From Mediterraneibacter butyricigenes (GTDB taxonomy: Bacteria; Bacillota; Clostridia; Lachnospirales; Lachnospiraceae), in NCBI RefSeq assembly GCF_003574295.1, contig NZ_BHGK01000001.1:496001-560000 (forward strand): 64,000 nucleotides of DNA. The letters are read 5' to 3'. The number at the start of each line of letters is the position of its first letter. Position 1 is the stretch's first letter. The translations under genes were made by a program, and so were the position numbers. Below are positions 1 to 8,827 of this stretch, piece after piece. Below the pieces are notes generated by a model, which saw nothing but the letters and a program-made list of their open reading frames with translations, did no database searches and had not been told where the DNA came from.

Positions 1-4
1 AGTT

Positions 5-415
5 GTGGACTATACATTTGAAAGTGACCGGATTAAGGGATTGTATTGTGATGGTGTTGTAGCCATCCGAGAAGATATGACGATTCCAGAGAAAGCTTGT
101 GCACTGGCAGAAGAAATGGGACATCACGGAACCTCTTACGGGAATATCATAGATATGGATTCCGTACAGAACCGTAAACAGGAACGTCAGGCACGCTTGC
201 ACGGATATAATCGCCTGATCGGACTCGCAGGGCTGGTCGAAGCCTATGAACACGGCTGCCAGAACCGGTATGAGATTGCAGAGTTTTTGGAAGTTACGGA
301 TGAATTTCTGGAAGACTGCATTAGCTGCTATCGAGATAAGTATGGGGAGTGCAAAACTGTAGATAACTACACAATTTATTTTATCCCTAACTTGATGATA
401 TTTAAGAAAATATAG
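5..415 (+). CDS. ImmA/IrrE-family metallopeptidase, 5'-partial
   Basis: Resembles ImmA/IrrE (DUF955) zinc peptidases, which in mobile elements cleave the element's repressor after damage and so trigger excision or transfer. The diagnostic core is AEEMGHHGTSY (about residues 35-45), where E and H residues form the metal site; the order of the H/E residues departs from a strict HExxH, as is common in phage versions. A helical 'NRKQERQARLHGYNRLIG' block and the ending VDNYTIYFIP fit the family. The frame is open to the window edge, so the GTG at 5 may not be the true start and N-terminal residues are probably missing. It is followed 15 nt later by the TPR-like gene. The family call is fairly secure; the target repressor is outside the window. 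Confidence 0.75.
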   Translation: MDYTFESDRIKGLYCDGVVAIREDMTIPEKACALAEEMGHHGTSYGNIIDMDSVQNRKQERQARLHGYNRLIGLAGLVEAYEHGCQNRYEIAEFLEVTDEFLEDCISCYRDKYGECKTVDNYTIYFIPNLMIFKKI

Positions 416-430
416 AATCGAGGTGATTTT

Positions 431-1258
431 ATGGGATTTTTTGATGCATTTAAACCCAAAGACACTTCTTCATCTTCCAAAATTATAGACAGAAAATCTA
501 TTCCAGCCGAACAAATAGATAAAATGCAACGTATCAAAGCCAGCAACTGTTATCGTCAAAGACTTTATAAAACCTTTTATAAAGGATATCCTGAAATGCC
601 ATTTATTTCTCAAGATAGAGAATTAAACACCAACTGGATCGAGCAAGCCAAAATGTTTGGCGTTACTCCTACAAAAGAAGCGATGACACGATATTCTGAT
701 GGTTTATTGCCTGGACATGTTTATCTGTTGTATTGGCTAAAGAAATATACCAACCAAAAGGCCCCCTCGTACTTCGAATATAAATACGGTATAGATTTTT
801 ATAAAGAAAAGAAGTTATTAACTCAGAACGGTTATTTGGAAAATTCCAAGCCTACCCACAAAGGCGAACTTGCAATCAATACTCATCATGATGTCATTGT
901 TAAACATGATTCGAAATTTCAAGTAACTTTATCAGATAATGCTGATTTAAGTAAATTAAAAGATCCTGCTGATATTAACTTAAACGCAAGGGAATTGGAG
1001 AAGCAAGGTGATATAGATACTGCTATAACGCTCTACGAAAAAAATGTTTCTCACCGTTTTGTCGGTAATTATCCTTATGATAGACTCGCCATTATCTACA
1101 GGAAGAAAAAAGACTATGCTAATGAAATCCGTGTTCTTAAAACAGCAATTGATGTTTTTACACATGATGTTCCTGTTACACGTTCAGATCGTTCTGTCAA
1201 GTTAACACGTTTCAAAGAACGTCTAGCAAAAGCAAAAAAATTAAAGATGAATAATTAG
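431..1258 (+). CDS. Hypothetical cargo protein with C-terminal TPR-like region
   Basis: I do not recognise a named family for the whole 275-residue protein. It starts at an ATG after GAGGTGATTTT, a good ribosome site. The N-terminal 40 residues are Ser/Lys-rich and probably disordered. Residues about 95-150 look like a small winged-helix or SAP-like unit (YFEYKYGIDF...LLTQNGYL...HKGELAI). Residues about 185-265 form helical pairs typical of a TPR unit (ARELEKQGDIDTAITLYEKN, then IYRKKKDYANEIRVLKTAID). No signal peptide or membrane segment. It lies between an ImmA gene and a displaced ImmA-like tail, and is AT-rich, so it looks like cargo acquired by the element. No biochemical role is proposed. 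Confidence 0.6.
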   Translation: MGFFDAFKPKDTSSSSKIIDRKSIPAEQIDKMQRIKASNCYRQRLYKTFYKGYPEMPFISQDRELNTNWIEQAKMFGVTPTKEAMTRYSDGLLPGHVYLLYWLKKYTNQKAPSYFEYKYGIDFYKEKKLLTQNGYLENSKPTHKGELAINTHHDVIVKHDSKFQVTLSDNADLSKLKDPADINLNARELEKQGDIDTAITLYEKNVSHRFVGNYPYDRLAIIYRKKKDYANEIRVLKTAIDVFTHDVPVTRSDRSVKLTRFKERLAKAKKLKMNN

Positions 1259-1265
1259 AAAATTC

Positions 1266-1361
1266 TTTGATAACAATCTTCCTAAGTACGGAATCGGAAC
1301 GACCGTGGATAATTACTACATTGCGTTTATCCCGCATTTGATGGTAGGGAAGATAAAATAA
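1266..1361 (+). pseudogene. Orphan C-terminal tail of an ImmA/IrrE-like gene
   Basis: Immediately after the TPR-like gene an open stretch encodes KYGIGTTVDNYYIAFIPHLM before a TAA. It matches the end of the ImmA-like protein at 5-415 (KYGECKTVDNYTIYFIPNLM). There is no start or upstream ImmA body, so this is a remnant. The simplest reading is that the cargo gene entered within or beside an immA 3' end and the original tail was left downstream while the first copy acquired another ending. Confidence 0.65.
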
Positions 1362-1427
1362 AAATAGACGCCTTTTTTATAAGAATATGAGTTCAAAAAA
1401 CACTTAGAATTGGTACACTCTGTAAAT

Positions 1428-1469
1428 ATCATTTTGGTACAATGTGGAAAATTATTTTTGCAAAATGAT
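1428..1469. repeat. Inverted repeat with 9-bp arms
   Basis: ATCATTTTG at 1428-1436 is exactly complementary to CAAAATGAT at 1461-1469, in an AT-rich gap. The octamer TTGGTACA also occurs twice nearby (about 1410 and 1435). It may be a regulator site or a weak hairpin upstream of the abi promoter. Confidence 0.35.
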
Positions 1470-1490
1470 AAGCATTTTTTTGTAGAATAC

Positions 1491-1518
1491 TTGACAAGAT
1501 TCTTGCGTATGATATAAT
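1491..1518 (+). promoter_or_regulatory. Sigma-A promoter for the abiF-type RNA and possibly abi
   Basis: A perfect TTGACA (1491-1496) and perfect TATAAT (1513-1518) are separated by 16 bp. Transcription would begin near 1525, just upstream of the structured RNA and 90 nt before the Abi start codon. Confidence 0.75.
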
Positions 1519-1520
1519 AT

Positions 1521-1594
1521 CACTAATTAGTGAATGACTGGGGTCCAGTTGCAGAAGAGTCTTGAGGTAGAAATGCTTCAGGGCTCTTTTTGCA
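1521..1594 (+). ncRNA. Small structured RNA upstream of abi (abiF RNA motif candidate)
   Basis: The segment between a consensus promoter and the Abi gene holds three structural elements. First comes a 12-bp perfect palindrome CACTAATTAGTG (1521-1532). Next is a hairpin ACTGG-GGT-CCAGT (about 1537-1549). Last is a long hairpin with a T-run (1555-1591) that works as a terminator. The result would be a discrete RNA of roughly 70 nt, or an attenuated leader. An 'abiF' RNA motif next to AbiF/Abi_2 genes is known from comparative genomics; position and architecture agree, but the covariance model was not run. It could act as an RNA antitoxin or regulator of the neighbouring HEPN protein. Confidence 0.55.
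1555..1591 (+). terminator. Intrinsic terminator or attenuator before abi
   Basis: AAGAGTCTTGAG pairs with CTTCAGGGCTCTT, including G-U pairs, across a loop of about 8-10 nt and is followed by TTTTT. It lies 25 nt before the Abi start, so most transcripts would end as the small RNA and read-through would make abi mRNA. Confidence 0.6.
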
Positions 1595-1616
1595 TAATTA
1601 ACGAAAGGAAAAGATT

Positions 1617-2591
1617 ATGTGCAATAAAATAATTGCAGAATTCACTACTATAGATGAACAAATTGAAATTTTAAAGAGACGACATCTTTTGTTCTTAGAC
1701 GAAAAACTCGCAAGAGATTCGTTACAAGCTTATGGATATTACACCCTAATCAACGGCTACAAAGAACCCTATGTCTATCTTGATGAAGATGGAAATGAAT
1801 TTTATAAAGAAGGCACTTATTTCGAACAAATTTGCTCTCTCTTTAATCTTGATGCCGAACTCCGTTACGCGGTTTTAACTTCTATGCTTGCTCTAGAAGA
1901 CCATTTACGCTCTGTAACATCCTATGTTATAGGTGAACACTTTGGATCAGACGACTCGGTTTACTTAAATCGAGAAAACTACAAAGATCGACCTGTTTCA
2001 AATAAAAATTTTTCTTTGGATTCTATTCTTGATACGATGCAGCATACATTACGTTCCAACAGAGAGCCTATTCTATATCACCGACAACATTATAATAATG
2101 TTCCTCCGTGGATTCTCGTAAAAGGGCTTTATATGAATACACTTGTTAACTTTATACGCTTTCAAAAGAAATATGTTAAAGAAGAAATGCTTCATATTAT
2201 CTATGGAATCTCTCCTGAAGTAGCTGCTTTAGATTCCGTAAAGGAATTGTTTATGAGTACACTCTTTATTTCATTAGATTATAGGAATATGGCAGCTCAT
2301 GGTGGGCGCACATACAATTTTGCTCCACATTCAAAATTAAGATTAAATAATTCTTTGATCAAGGAATTATCAACGGTTCTTGATTGCCCTGTCCTAACGC
2401 AGAAAACCTGCAACATTAATCAGTTATTTTACTTATTACGATTATTCCGATTAGAACCACTTCATCTAAATATGTTAACCGCTTTAGAAAAGGAGGTAAG
2501 TCGTCATTGTACCCTGTTTCCGAATGATATCCATTACATCCAAGACGCTACTGGAGTACTCTTCGATCTCGAAATAACTGAAGATAAATAA
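1617..2591 (+). CDS. Abi family (Abi_2/AbiD-AbiF type) abortive-infection protein
   Basis: A 324-residue cytosolic protein of the Abi_2 family, linked to abortive infection of phage. Family marks are the early LQAYGYYTLINGY block (residues 37-48), the acidic-aromatic stretch around residues 55-75, and RNMAAH at 223-228. The last fits the R-x4-H ribonuclease signature of HEPN domains, so RNA cleavage is a reasonable inference. The ATG at 1617 follows AAAGGAAAAG. Just upstream is a promoter and a short structured RNA, the arrangement known for abiF RNA. The gene lies between immA and the recombinase, so it is defence cargo of the mobile element. The family is fairly secure; the trigger and the RNA target are unknown. 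Confidence 0.85.
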   Translation: MCNKIIAEFTTIDEQIEILKRRHLLFLDEKLARDSLQAYGYYTLINGYKEPYVYLDEDGNEFYKEGTYFEQICSLFNLDAELRYAVLTSMLALEDHLRSVTSYVIGEHFGSDDSVYLNRENYKDRPVSNKNFSLDSILDTMQHTLRSNREPILYHRQHYNNVPPWILVKGLYMNTLVNFIRFQKKYVKEEMLHIIYGISPEVAALDSVKELFMSTLFISLDYRNMAAHGGRTYNFAPHSKLRLNNSLIKELSTVLDCPVLTQKTCNINQLFYLLRLFRLEPLHLNMLTALEKEVSRHCTLFPNDIHYIQDATGVLFDLEITEDK

Positions 2592-2604
2592 TATTCATAA
2601 TAAA

Positions 2605-2634
2605 AAACCGCCCCTGCGCCAACAGGAACGGTTT
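2605..2634. terminator. Terminator after abi
   Basis: AAACCG (2605-2610) pairs with CGGTTT (2629-2634), reinforced by CCTG/CAGG inside. It lies 14 nt after the abi stop. A-run on the left and T-run on the right make it potentially bidirectional. Confidence 0.55.
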
Positions 2635-2672
2635 CCCCATAATCAATATGAGGACGTATATAACGTATATAT

Positions 2673-2719
2673 CCGAAGAGATACATACAATACTCACAAA
2701 AATATTGTATCATCTTCGG
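2673..2719. repeat. Long imperfect inverted repeat upstream of the recombinase
   Basis: CCGAAGA (2673-2679) and TCTTCGG (2713-2719) form the base, and TACAATA/TATTGTA (2686-2692, 2703-2709) the top, of one stem. It lies 95 bp before the recombinase start and may be a second terminator or a protein-binding site. Confidence 0.5.
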
Positions 2720-2777
2720 GCAGCTATCGCAAGCGGAACACCCGTTCCTCGCTGGCTGTTATTTTTATACCCATTTT

Positions 2778-2793
2778 TGTGCGACGTCGCACA
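2778..2793. promoter_or_regulatory. Perfect 16-bp palindrome before the recombinase
   Basis: TGTGCGACGTCGCACA is a perfect palindrome ending 21 nt before the recombinase ATG and close to its ribosome site AGGAAGGTGATG. It is far more GC-rich than its surroundings. An operator for a dimeric repressor, or a hairpin masking translation, are both plausible. Confidence 0.5.
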
Positions 2794-2814
2794 TATACTT
2801 AGGAAGGTGATGTT

Positions 2815-4371
2815 ATGAAAAATGAATACTGTATCTATCTGAGGAAATCCCGTGGTGATTCCGCTCTTGAAGCTATGGGCGTAGATGTCCTGGAACGGCA
2901 TGAGCGCACACTCCTGGATCTGGCCAAACAGATGAATCTGTCGATCACTGCAATCTACCGTGAAGTGGTTTCTGGTGACTCTATTTCTGCCCGTCCTGAA
3001 ATGCAAAAACTTCTGGCTGAGGTGGAATCCGGCAAATGGAAAGGCGTACTGGTTATGGAAGTAGAACGTCTGGCCAGAGGCGACACCATCGATCAGGGCA
3101 TTGTTCAAAGAGCATTCCAGTACACGGATACTCTGATCGTAACGCCAGTCAAAGTCTACAATCCTGCCAATGAATTCGATGAAGAATACTTTGAATTTGG
3201 ATTATTCATGTCACGCCGGGAATATAAAACCATCAAGCGCCGGATGCAAGCCGGTCGTTATGCTGCAGCCAAAGAAGGAAAATGGCCATTTAATGCAGCA
3301 CCTTATGGTTTCCGCAGATTCAAGCTCTCAAAAGAAAAAGGGTGGACACTTGTACCGGAAGAAGAAGAGGTTCCTGTTGTGCGTCTGGTATATGCACGTT
3401 ACACCGGCCCCGATCGCGTTGGCGTGACCACGATCCGCAGATATCTGAATGACCGCCAAATGTTCACGCGCTCCGGTAAATTGTGGACAGACAGCATGAT
3501 CCGGGAAATGCTGGCAAATCCGGTATATGATCAGATGGTCGCAATCGGTCGGCGGAAACAAATCACTGCACTGGAAGACGGGCAACCGGTAAAGAAACGT
3601 CCCCGTTGTGATAATTACGAAGTATATCAGGGCAGACACCCTCGTATCATTGATCACGATGTCTGGATGGAAGCACAGAGCTACCTTGGAAGAGGAAAAC
3701 CTAAACTTCCGGAGCAGTACAGCGTAAAAAATCCACTGGCCGGATTGATTGTGTGCAGCCAGTGTAAAAAGAAAATGCTCCGTCGTCCTGCTGCTCTGAC
3801 CGGAAATAAACATGGTGCTCCTTACGATTCGATTTTATGCAATACACAAGGCTGTCCAACCGTAGGATGCAGTCTGGATCTGTTGGAACATTCCGTCATC
3901 GATGCGTTGAGTGAATGGGTAAAGGATTATGAATTGGATCATGTCATTCCAGAAAGTAAAGTCCCGGAACTAACAGATCTCCTAGGATCCACTGAAAAAG
4001 AAAAGGCTGCTCTTCTCTCCCAGAAAGAAAACCTTTTCAATCTTCTGGAACAGGGCGTGTACTCCTCTGAGGTCTTTCTGGAACGCTCCCACGTCCTTCA
4101 GGAGCGCATTAATGCTGTGGATGATAAAATCCTCGACTTACAAAAAGAGATCGAATATGAGAAAAATAACGATGCTCACATCCATAGTTTTATTCCATCC
4201 TGCAAAGGTCTGCTCTCCTGTTATTGGGATTTATCAGTTGAGGAAAAGAATAAAGCTTTGAAAATGCTATTGCATAGTGTAGAATATAAGAAGTTAAAGA
4301 GAAACAAGAAAGGACACAAAGATGATGCGTCCTTTGAACTAACTATAAAGCCTCGAATCCCGCGTATTTAG
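2815..4371 (+). CDS. Large serine recombinase (integrase)
   Basis: A 518-residue integrase of the large serine recombinase class, catalysing site-specific integration and, with a directionality factor, excision. The N-terminal resolvase domain (about 1-150) carries the nucleophile S12 in YLRKS and the conserved ER-LAR-D segment (84-90). A recombinase domain follows (about 155-290, with PYGFRR at 163-168). The zinc ribbon has C314, C317, C342 and C347. A coiled-coil region (about 385-450) comes last. Length and domain order are normal and no key residue is missing. The start follows GGAAGGTGATGTT. The gene ends 18 bp before truncated cotJC, the usual position of an integrase next to its att site. 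It is the last gene of an element extending left beyond the window. Confidence 0.93.
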   Translation: MKNEYCIYLRKSRGDSALEAMGVDVLERHERTLLDLAKQMNLSITAIYREVVSGDSISARPEMQKLLAEVESGKWKGVLVMEVERLARGDTIDQGIVQRAFQYTDTLIVTPVKVYNPANEFDEEYFEFGLFMSRREYKTIKRRMQAGRYAAAKEGKWPFNAAPYGFRRFKLSKEKGWTLVPEEEEVPVVRLVYARYTGPDRVGVTTIRRYLNDRQMFTRSGKLWTDSMIREMLANPVYDQMVAIGRRKQITALEDGQPVKKRPRCDNYEVYQGRHPRIIDHDVWMEAQSYLGRGKPKLPEQYSVKNPLAGLIVCSQCKKKMLRRPAALTGNKHGAPYDSILCNTQGCPTVGCSLDLLEHSVIDALSEWVKDYELDHVIPESKVPELTDLLGSTEKEKAALLSQKENLFNLLEQGVYSSEVFLERSHVLQERINAVDDKILDLQKEIEYEKNNDAHIHSFIPSCKGLLSCYWDLSVEEKNKALKMLLHSVEYKKLKRNKKGHKDDASFELTIKPRIPRI

Positions 4372-4400
4372 GGGCTTTTCGGTTACTTCTACAGAAAATG
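4372..4400. other. Predicted attachment-site junction inside cotJC
   Basis: The cotJC reading frame matches its family up to H68 (codon 4398-4400), then reads only Phe-Leu-stop. The integrase stop lies at 4369-4371. The crossover site must therefore lie near 4385-4410, around the codons for GTEEVSH. The exact core cannot be read without the other end of the element. Confidence 0.6.
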
Positions 4401-4601
4401 GGAAACTTCCTCAGTTCCGATATCGGTCAATATTCCAGTTACTTCCTTATAAGGCATGGTGTATCTCTGACACAAATATCTCATGGATGCGCCAAGCTCG
4501 CCGTCAGGTCCTCCAAATTGAGTCATAATTACCTGTGCCATTTCCGGATTTGTCTGAGTAATCTTTACCGGATACTGTAACCTCTTTTCATAATTCCACA
4601 T
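4389..4601 (-). pseudogene. cotJC: cotJC (spore-coat Mn-catalase) N-terminal fragment, interrupted
   Basis: Seventy residues matching the start of CotJC, the manganese-catalase-like spore coat protein: MWNYEKRLQYPV, then GGPDGELGASMRYL (30-43), then LTDIGTEEVSH (58-68). Intact CotJC is about 190-220 residues, so two thirds are missing. The break falls at the HxxE-type metal-ligand region, removing most of the active site. Downstream sequence is the mobile element carrying the serine recombinase. It follows cotJB by 3 nt. Identity is secure; whether the gene is dead or is restored by excision during sporulation cannot be told from this window. Confidence 0.85.
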
Positions 4602-4604
4602 AAA

Positions 4605-4874
4605 TCAGCATCCCCCTTCCTGCCATGGCCACGGTGAATCAATCCAATCCCAATTATCACTGCATGAATCCGTCACTGTATCTATAGTCAACGGTCCGAA
4701 GTTTTTGGCATACTCTTTCAATGCCTGATTGCGCATCCGACTGCACTCATAAAAATACGCCAGGGCATCTTCATCCTCAGGATGCGTATCTAAAAATAGT
4801 TTTGCATCATCCACCGCAAAACTATATAAATAAATCTGATCCATCAGATCTTTCTTGCATACACCATTCGTCAT
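4605..4874 (-). CDS. cotJB: Spore coat protein CotJB
   Basis: About 89 residues matching CotJB, a small inner-coat protein made in the mother cell. Visible features are KKDLMDQIYLYSFAVDDAKLFLDTHP with the family's helical spacing, then ECSRMRNQALKEYAKNFGPLT, and a Trp-rich end (WDWIDSPWPWQ). The start is taken at the internal ATG (4874) because AAAAGGAGGGCAAATGAG stands directly upstream and it overlaps the cotJA stop by 4 nt; a longer reading from 4940 has no such support. It lies between cotJA and cotJC in the usual order, minus strand. Confidence 0.88.
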   Translation of the reverse strand: MTNGVCKKDLMDQIYLYSFAVDDAKLFLDTHPEDEDALAYFYECSRMRNQALKEYAKNFGPLTIDTVTDSCSDNWDWIDSPWPWQEGGC

Positions 4875-5140
4875 CTCATTTGCCCTCCTTTTCTTCCAAG
4901 AAATTCGAGATTTAATTCCTGAAAGATCGTTCCCTGACAAAGAGCCTTCTCTAAATCACAGATTTCTCTCCATTCCTGCCATGGCACATAAGCCATCGCA
5001 AGCGGAAACTGAGATAACGGATCTTTTCTCATCTTTATACATGTATCACATGCATCCTGGTGAAATTCAGCACATGGTGAACAGGAACCTCTTCCCGTAT
5101 TTCGAACCTGATTCCGGGAATAATTGGAACAATATGGCAT
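4871..5140 (-). CDS. cotJA: Spore coat-associated protein CotJA
   Basis: Eighty-nine residues whose second half, PLAMAYVPWQEW followed by LEKALCQGTIFQEL, is the signature of CotJA, first gene of the cotJABC coat operon. The N-terminal 40 residues are Cys-rich (six Cys) with no clear family match. The start follows AAAAGGAGGAAACAGGAAT. It overlaps cotJB by 4 nt, indicating translational coupling. Expression is expected in the mother cell under SigE; a weak matching promoter lies upstream. Confidence 0.88.
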   Translation of the reverse strand: MPYCSNYSRNQVRNTGRGSCSPCAEFHQDACDTCIKMRKDPLSQFPLAMAYVPWQEWREICDLEKALCQGTIFQELNLEFLGRKGGQMR

Positions 5141-5203: not shown

Positions 5204-5310
5204 ATATTTTCCTTTCTTGCCACATATATGTGGATGATTTCAATTTTAAACGTTGTTCTTACGAAGTCGCCGCAGATGGTACGATTGTGTAAAGACAGCA
5301 TTTATAAAAC

Positions 5311-5336
5311 AAAAAAGATCAACATTTCTGTTGATC
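5311..5336 (-). terminator. rRNA operon terminator
   Basis: GATCAACA (5317-5324) and TGTTGATC (5329-5336) form a perfect 8-bp stem with a 4-nt loop, followed on the minus strand by six T. It lies about 70 nt past the 23S 3' end and 14 nt past the 23S processing arm, with no second 5S in between. Confidence 0.8.
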
Positions 5337-5349
5337 TCCCAATAAATAT

Positions 5350-5373
5350 GTACCTTCAAAATCACATACAAAG
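5350..5373 (-). repeat. 23S processing stem, 3' arm
   Basis: These 24 bases complement 22 of 24 bases at 8442-8465 on the other side of 23S. In the transcript they would form the long stem cut by RNase III to release pre-23S. Confidence 0.7.
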
Positions 5374-5402
5374 AACTCTTTCATCCATTCTCCTATCACC
5401 TG

Positions 5403-8295
<2,893 letters not shown>

Positions 8296-8827
8296 ACTTG
8301 CTTCGATTCACGGGAATGAATCTCAGCCACACATGTATAGCGTTACATGCGTTGGTAATAGTTCAATTATTTTAGTTCGTTTTCTTCGAACAAGTTAATG
8401 TTGTTAACATTACCTCGGATGTCTTGATATTTCTATCTTATCTTTGTATGCGATTTTCAAGGTACATAAAGATGCGAGCGCGTCGGAAACAATGTGTGGG
8501 ACAAGCTTGCTTGTCTAAGCACTATTGCTTTTCGATGCATTGGCATGTCATGCCATGAGCGATAAAACCGTAGGTTTTAGAGCTTCGCATCACATCTTCT
8601 CATTTCATTGACTGAATTTATCAGTCATTAGAAACCTGAACACTTTTAGAACTTCCTCTTTTCTTCTCGTTCAACTCTCTAATCACTGGTAAAACCAGCT
8701 ATCCGAACAGCACTTCCCTGCTGATGGGGTTGACCTCAGGCTCCCCTCTTTTCTTCAGTTGCCTGTGTCTGTATCTATGCATAAATGTCGAGCAGCGATT
8801 CCGCTCTTTCATTTATTCTTTTTCAAT
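8296..8827 (-). other. Spacer between 5S and 23S
   Basis: About 530 bp without a tRNA or credible gene. It contains the 5' arm of the 23S processing stem (8442-8465), small hairpins such as GACAAGC-TT-GCTTGTC near 8501-8516, and otherwise unstructured AT-rich sequence. Confidence 0.6.
8442..8465 (-). repeat. 23S processing stem, 5' arm
   Basis: Pairs with 5350-5373. It includes the CCTTGAAAAT motif that also occurs ahead of 16S (about 10687-10696). Confidence 0.7.

Follow-up and report, generated by a model that had tools for sequence, protein, structure and literature searches.

The cotJ operon of Mediterraneibacter butyricigenes raises the question of whether a spore-coat gene that breaks off beside a recombinase has been destroyed or can be put together again. 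We analyzed a window of 64,000 nucleotides, corresponding to C1:496001-560000 of the host genome (G000; 3.03 Mb in seven contigs); window positions are counted from 1, and coordinates elsewhere in the genome carry the contig label C1. In the window, cotJA and cotJB are intact on the minus strand, as predicted from the bare sequence and borne out by profile searches, and cotJC adjoins the gene of a full-length large serine recombinase (LSR). The stop codons of the LSR and the truncated cotJC lie 17 bp apart (4372-4388), rather than 18 bp as first counted. The original prediction also had cotJC breaking off near its third metal-ligand region, after the residues GTEEVSH. True homology stops at a trinucleotide core (4407-4409); the final VSHFL of the 70-codon open frame is encoded by a phage-derived arm and resembles LAHLE by chance. 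Directly upstream of the cotJ operon lies an rRNA operon (window about 5305-8400), the end of which is 99-100% identical to three other loci of the same genome.

A search of the genome with the Mn_catalase profile (PF05067) returned exactly two matches (Table 1) and no third, which leaves the split gene as the sole CotJC of this genome. The 3' part lies outside the window, 38.9 kb leftward of the 5' part. Chance is excluded as an explanation for this second match, because it is on the same strand, is complementary to the first in profile coordinates (62-197) and rejoins with it in frame. The sequence left of the window, where the original prediction had suggested looking, thus holds the 3' part of cotJC at the other end of the element, next to a matching att half. 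The mobile element postulated inside cotJC is a prophage of 38,922 bp (C1:461485-500409) with parts of the gene on either side, and the initial observation is confirmed. That unrelated sequence was joined to cotJC during assembly is improbable in the extreme, as both junctions reside on one 2.9-Mb contig, the halves, att arms and LSR are mutually consistent and the same architecture recurs in one-contig genomes (G268, G300 and G359).

Table 1. Features of the cotJC-borne element and its surroundings. Coordinates are window positions unless preceded by C1.
Feature	Coordinates	Strand	Remarks
cotJC 3' match	C1:461131-461499	-	PF05067, profile positions 62-197
attL	C1:461485-461513		GTAGAAGTAAC at 461503-461513
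Prophage right end	1..4409		remaining 34.5 kb left of window
IrrE/M78-like peptidase	1..415 (starts at C1:495936, outside window)	+	E 5e-4, below cut-off; lysogeny module
Cargo ORF, 275 aa	431..1258	+	no family over its cut-off
Abi_2-family cargo protein	1617..2591	+	PF07751, E 1e-28
Shared LSR upstream block	2725-2800		also at loci L062, L078, L080, L081, L213, L225, L231, L208
Sigma-E-like site of LSR	2771..2799	+	CCATTTT-N14-CATATACT, 23 bp before LSR start
LSR (integrase/excisionase)	2815..4371	+	518 aa; site-B clade B1; phrog_95 integrase, E 7.6e-91
attR	4382..4430		phage arm GTTACTTCTAC (4382-4392), core TTC (4407-4409), then cotJC
cotJC 5' fragment	4389..4601	-	homologous part 4407-4601, codons 1-65; last codons of open frame are phage arm
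cotJC 5' match	C1:500398-500601	-	PF05067, profile positions 1-69
cotJB, intact	4605..4940	-	PF12652, E 6.7e-30
cotJA, intact	4871..5140	-	sigma-E/K-like promoter GCACATT-N13-CATAAATT upstream

The junctions indicate how the gene was opened. On the cotJC strand, where the core reads GAA, the sequence at the 5' part is ...GATATCGGAACTGAGGAA|GTTTCCCATTTTCTGTAGAAGTAACC and that at the 3' part is GGTTTCACGTTACTTCTACCGAATACTGGACAAC|GAACTTGCTCATCTTGAAATC. Joining the two flanks in silico by a crossover at the common GAA gives DIGTEE^LAHLEII (^, junction) within a 199-aa open frame, in agreement with the DIGTEELAH motif of unbroken CotJC in related genomes. The phage-derived halves join as GTTACTTCTAC-N32-GTAGAAGTAAC, an attP that is palindromic, its 11-bp arms being perfect repeats; this inverted repeat spans 54 bp around the GAA core, consistent with an att site of about 50 bp. 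An LSR inserted the element at a defined att site, the gene halves and hybrid att sites have both stayed intact and the gene is restorable; a crossover between attL and attR would yield exactly the full-length CotJC.

Residues 4-178 of the rejoined CotJC align with Alr3090 (6j42; E 2.3e-21) and residues 1-176 with the L. plantarum Mn catalase (1jku; E 2.6e-15). The ligands of the latter enzyme we take to be Glu35, Glu66, His69, Glu148 and His181. Comparison with the solved sequences located GGPDGE, EELAH, AAEQKAR and EIVH in the rejoined CotJC, and the product is predicted to be a complete Mn catalase fold with its Mn-ligand motifs. Were the insertion dead, the strain would have a cotJC pseudogene and two relic halves, a fate to which the truncated LSRs of some small elements in other genomes might point. 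In G000, however, both halves are open, in register and in possession of all ligand motifs, their CotJC match equals that of intact genes and the LSR is full length, so that we judge such decay very unlikely here.

The element brings along more than a recombinase. In its LSR, the Resolvase and Recombinase domains score above the Pfam cut-offs and a Zn-ribbon match falls below cut-off, and the IrrE/M78-like peptidase adjoins an HTH repressor. In the 34.5 kb beyond the left edge of the window, ORFs have matches to families of endolysin, tail fibre, tape measure, major head protein, portal, large terminase, DNA primase/helicase and repressor. The element is a complete tailed-phage prophage with all main modules. 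An IMG/VR contig of 38,917 bp encodes a recombinase 100% identical to the LSR; the exact predicted attP junction found no match in viral_contigs.

These properties bear on the class of the element, which had been proposed to be skin-like. It is an intervening element in a sporulation gene: cotJC is split, its parts are co-oriented, the frame is restorable and a serine recombinase adjoins att. It is not skin proper, a defective prophage inserted in sigK, since the target is cotJC and the prophage is complete. Because the element is a whole prophage, it resembles SPbeta in spsM more than skin, and it represents a newly found SPbeta-like sporulation-gene intervening element; the original interpretation as a whole is partly supported. 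With its complete gene set and its own repressor module, the whole prophage could, on the other hand, leave by ordinary induction. It might then be an ordinary prophage with a convenient attB, a conserved stretch of a gene needed in spores alone, excising only on induction and leaving lysogen spores without CotJC. In C. difficile, each cotJC-type catalase is dispensable individually, cotCB and cotD mutants having less catalase activity and no significant coat defect (PMC11222575). We nevertheless consider this account unlikely in light of the remnants, the inherited split gene and the promoter signals described below.

In 60 relatives surveyed, cotJC was found in pieces across many genera. A Mn_catalase match was present in 203 of 327 Lachnospiraceae genomes with a completeness of at least 90%, and in at least 57 of these 203 (over a quarter, by hand count) cotJC was split into at least two complementary pieces. 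In the only other available congener (G001), cotJC is broken at the G000 position too, by an LSR of another lineage. In-frame rejoining via a shared core of at least 2 bp succeeded for 67 of 68 adjacent piece pairs from 61 genomes, the sole failing pair (in G336) being two overlapping partial copies. The insertions fall into three windows, each 3-6 codons wide and each in a Mn-ligand motif: site A (profile positions 28.7-31.7; 20 cases), where rejoining restores GGPDGE or a close variant; site B (59.7-65.7; 33 cases), where EELAH or a close variant reappears; and site C (134.3-136.7; 14 cases), where every join recovers AAEQKAR. GGPDGE, EELAH and AAEQKAR are three of the ligand motifs of the Mn-catalase.

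Some gene copies have been hit repeatedly, with three insertions in G052 and two each in G204, G249, G128 and G082. On one contig of G204 (C24:9500-117500; L199-L201), two successive insertions of about 52-53 kb stretch cotJC over more than 100 kb. Element sizes range from 1.6 kb up to full prophages. At the lower end, remnants in G246 (2.4 kb) and G249 (2.5 kb) keep the LSR and both halves and contain little beyond an intact LSR; a 4.7-kb element of Tissierella praeacuta DSM 18095 carries an intact LSR and an amidase-like ORF, and no phage structural genes were found in it. That remnants without phage structural genes still have an LSR and both halves argues against ordinary prophages that excise only on induction. 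The LSR is shortened in a few small elements, some of which may therefore be stuck.

The fetched stretches contained an LSR in 58 of 66 genomes; it usually lay no more than 150 bp from a cotJC part, and in 52 of these 58 genomes it is at least 470 aa long. The LSR tree separates by target. Site A corresponds to one clade and site C to another, with one member of the site-C clade labelled A only since it borders the shared middle piece of the G082 gene; the site-B LSRs form two well separated groups, one of them two-branched, with the divergent LSR of G058 standing on its own. Among the 80 best relatives of the G000 LSR in named genomes, 61 directly adjoin a cotJC half, their hosts ranging from Lachnospiraceae and Oscillospiraceae to Caproiciproducens and T. 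praeacuta DSM 18095. On a virus-derived contig from human faeces that encodes a 46% identical LSR, GAACTGGCTCAT (ELAH codons) is located beside the integrase, as in a free attP. The LSRs of G000 and G004 abut the cotJC 5' half in opposite orientation, and those 59-63% identical to that of G000 (L098, L101 and L097) abut the 3' half in the same orientation; these opposite placements imply that the same attB takes up the element in both directions.

Two species of one genus (G013 and G315) have a site-C insertion in common. Their 5.0- and 5.2-kb stretches, comprising host flank, cotJC piece and element, are colinear and 96.4-96.5% identical across flank and element, and the insertion was therefore inherited by descent. 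Between the two species, the cotJC pieces show a dN of 0 at a dS of 0.14-0.18 over 207 codons, and dN/dS of the LSR is 0.12; this sister pair alone was used for dN/dS, synonymous sites being saturated across genera. Such conservation of a 3' half that lacks a start codon would not be expected if it were never rejoined. The absence of any amino-acid change in the separated 3' half of a split gene inherited by two species also runs counter to an ordinary prophage whose lysogens form spores without CotJC.

Sigma-E-like promoters were sought with the pattern KMATAYT, 13-15 bp, CATAYANT, allowing up to two mismatches. Such sites lie upstream of 10 of 58 cotJC-linked LSRs versus 4 of the 318 other ORFs from these loci (P = 2e-6, a value that is optimistic because the LSR sequences are related); as a positive control, 5 of 26 cotJA genes were recovered. 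This enrichment, too, speaks against excision by induction only. The site of the G000 LSR is weak on its own, with 13 sigma-E-like sites in the 39 kb of the element versus about 8 expected. In the C. difficile skin element, the LSR is constitutive and its directionality factor, CD1234, is under the control of sigma-E and SpoIIID (PMC5025042); a weak promoter signal at the G000 LSR is therefore no strong argument either way. As to a directionality factor in G000, a 56-aa ORF overlapping the LSR start (2648-2818) was without support, and a 58-aa acidic ORF toward the element's left end, behind a sigma-E-like site (about C1:462780-462950), is possible, but such sites are near chance level across the element.

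Nine of the 58 LSRs, from three clades, have a common upstream block consisting of a hairpin, then GTATTTTTTATACCC and usually CATA (Table 1), which looks as if a regulatory cassette had been swapped between integrases. Upstream of the G000 LSR, the spacer that separates the CATA box from the conserved block contains an operator-like palindrome, TGTGCGACGTCGCACA (window 2778-2793); a similar spacer palindrome occurs upstream of some related LSRs (L095, L097 and L140).

A complete temperate phage has entered codon 65 of the G000 cotJC via its own LSR, and we regard it as rather probable that excision in the mother cell at sporulation rejoins the gene. The LSR and a candidate directionality factor would be active in the mother cell during sporulation and excise the prophage; cotJABC would be rejoined, and CotJC could be made for the coat. 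The integrated prophage would stay in the spore, because the rearrangement would be limited to the terminal mother-cell chromosome. The phage would gain an attB at no cost to host growth and at little cost to sporulation. The element belongs to a large set: several LSR lineages have settled independently on the three cotJC stretches encoding Mn-ligand motifs, and some of the elements have shrunk to little beyond the recombinase. Comparison across the family makes programmed mother-cell excision a likely candidate process, and cotJC elements may form a widespread switch that is reset when spores form. We lean, by a little, toward the still broader proposal that cotJC of Clostridia is a general landing site on which unrelated serine-integrase lineages have converged, its function being kept by routine, developmentally timed splicing of mother-cell DNA, including copies that need two or three excisions.

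In the literature consulted, the sporulation genes known to be interrupted are sigK, spsM, spoVFB, gerE and yabG (PMC5595907, PMC10747680); a literature search, conducted mostly without subscription papers and hence no proof of absence, did not turn up cotJC among such targets. SPbeta in spsM of B. subtilis (PMC4191935) is likewise a complete, LSR-driven prophage in a mother-cell spore-surface gene. It is inducible, and its precise excision restores spsM, just as precise excision would restore cotJC in G000. The two differ in gene and host class, and the G000 LSR is about 30% identical to the SPbeta integrase; moreover, the cotJC target encodes an enzyme's catalytic motif and is common to many LSR lineages, and the G000 case is known from sequence alone. 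The skin elements in sigK of B. subtilis and C. difficile (PMC5025042) also are LSR elements splitting a mother-cell sporulation gene in frame; the small cotJC remnants in other species strongly resemble them, and skin of C. difficile sets a precedent for mother-cell control. Unlike the G000 element, a full prophage that gates a coat enzyme, skin is defective and acts on a sigma factor gene. Gin in gerE (B. cereus; PMC5595907), vfbin in spoVFB, and yin in yabG (C. botulinum; PMC10747680) are LSR-using sporulation-gene intervening elements as well, each reported with one gene, one insertion point and few hosts, in contrast to cotJC, which has three insertion points, is hit in many hosts and takes up to three insertions per gene copy. 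What is new is thus a multi-site, multi-lineage insertion hot spot in the catalytic motifs of one coat enzyme.

Among named phages, Dorea phage DO134P1 (OP172779.1) has the nearest integrase (62% identical over 99%); neither a cotJC-like core nor an inverted repeat was recognized beside it. Prophage phi027 of C. difficile R20291 was reported beside a CotJC-like Mn-catalase gene, CDR20291_1465 (PMC11222575). With 678 bp, this ORF is probably not split and was left out of the count.

Sporulation-gene intervening elements have so far been viewed as a few cases; in this survey, a single coat gene is hit in more than a quarter of the Lachnospiraceae with a Mn-catalase, and phage integrases have found its active-site codons on several independent occasions. 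If excision is programmed, splicing of DNA would belong to the regular course of coat formation in major gut bacteria and would tie phage fitness directly to spore quality. The cotJC pieces are also a source of numerous LSR/att pairs with natural attB sites, and in annotations split cotJC genes are probably recorded as absent or truncated.

A 3.9-kb cotJC element of G031 (L064; C18:14000-24000) encodes a full-length Spo0A and the 1.6-kb element of G325 (L174; C99:98500-103000) a 111-aa Spo0A_C domain. Phage-borne spo0A has been reported without a link to coat-gene integration (PMC10294663). Spo0A paralogs as general cargo that couples the elements to sporulation were discarded, being present inside these two elements only and absent from that of G000. 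Outside this cargo question, a Spo0A_C match over the family cut-off was obtained in all 54 split-gene genomes searched; in G000, which also has the cotJ operon, it lies at C1:166949-167260 in a 284-aa open frame.
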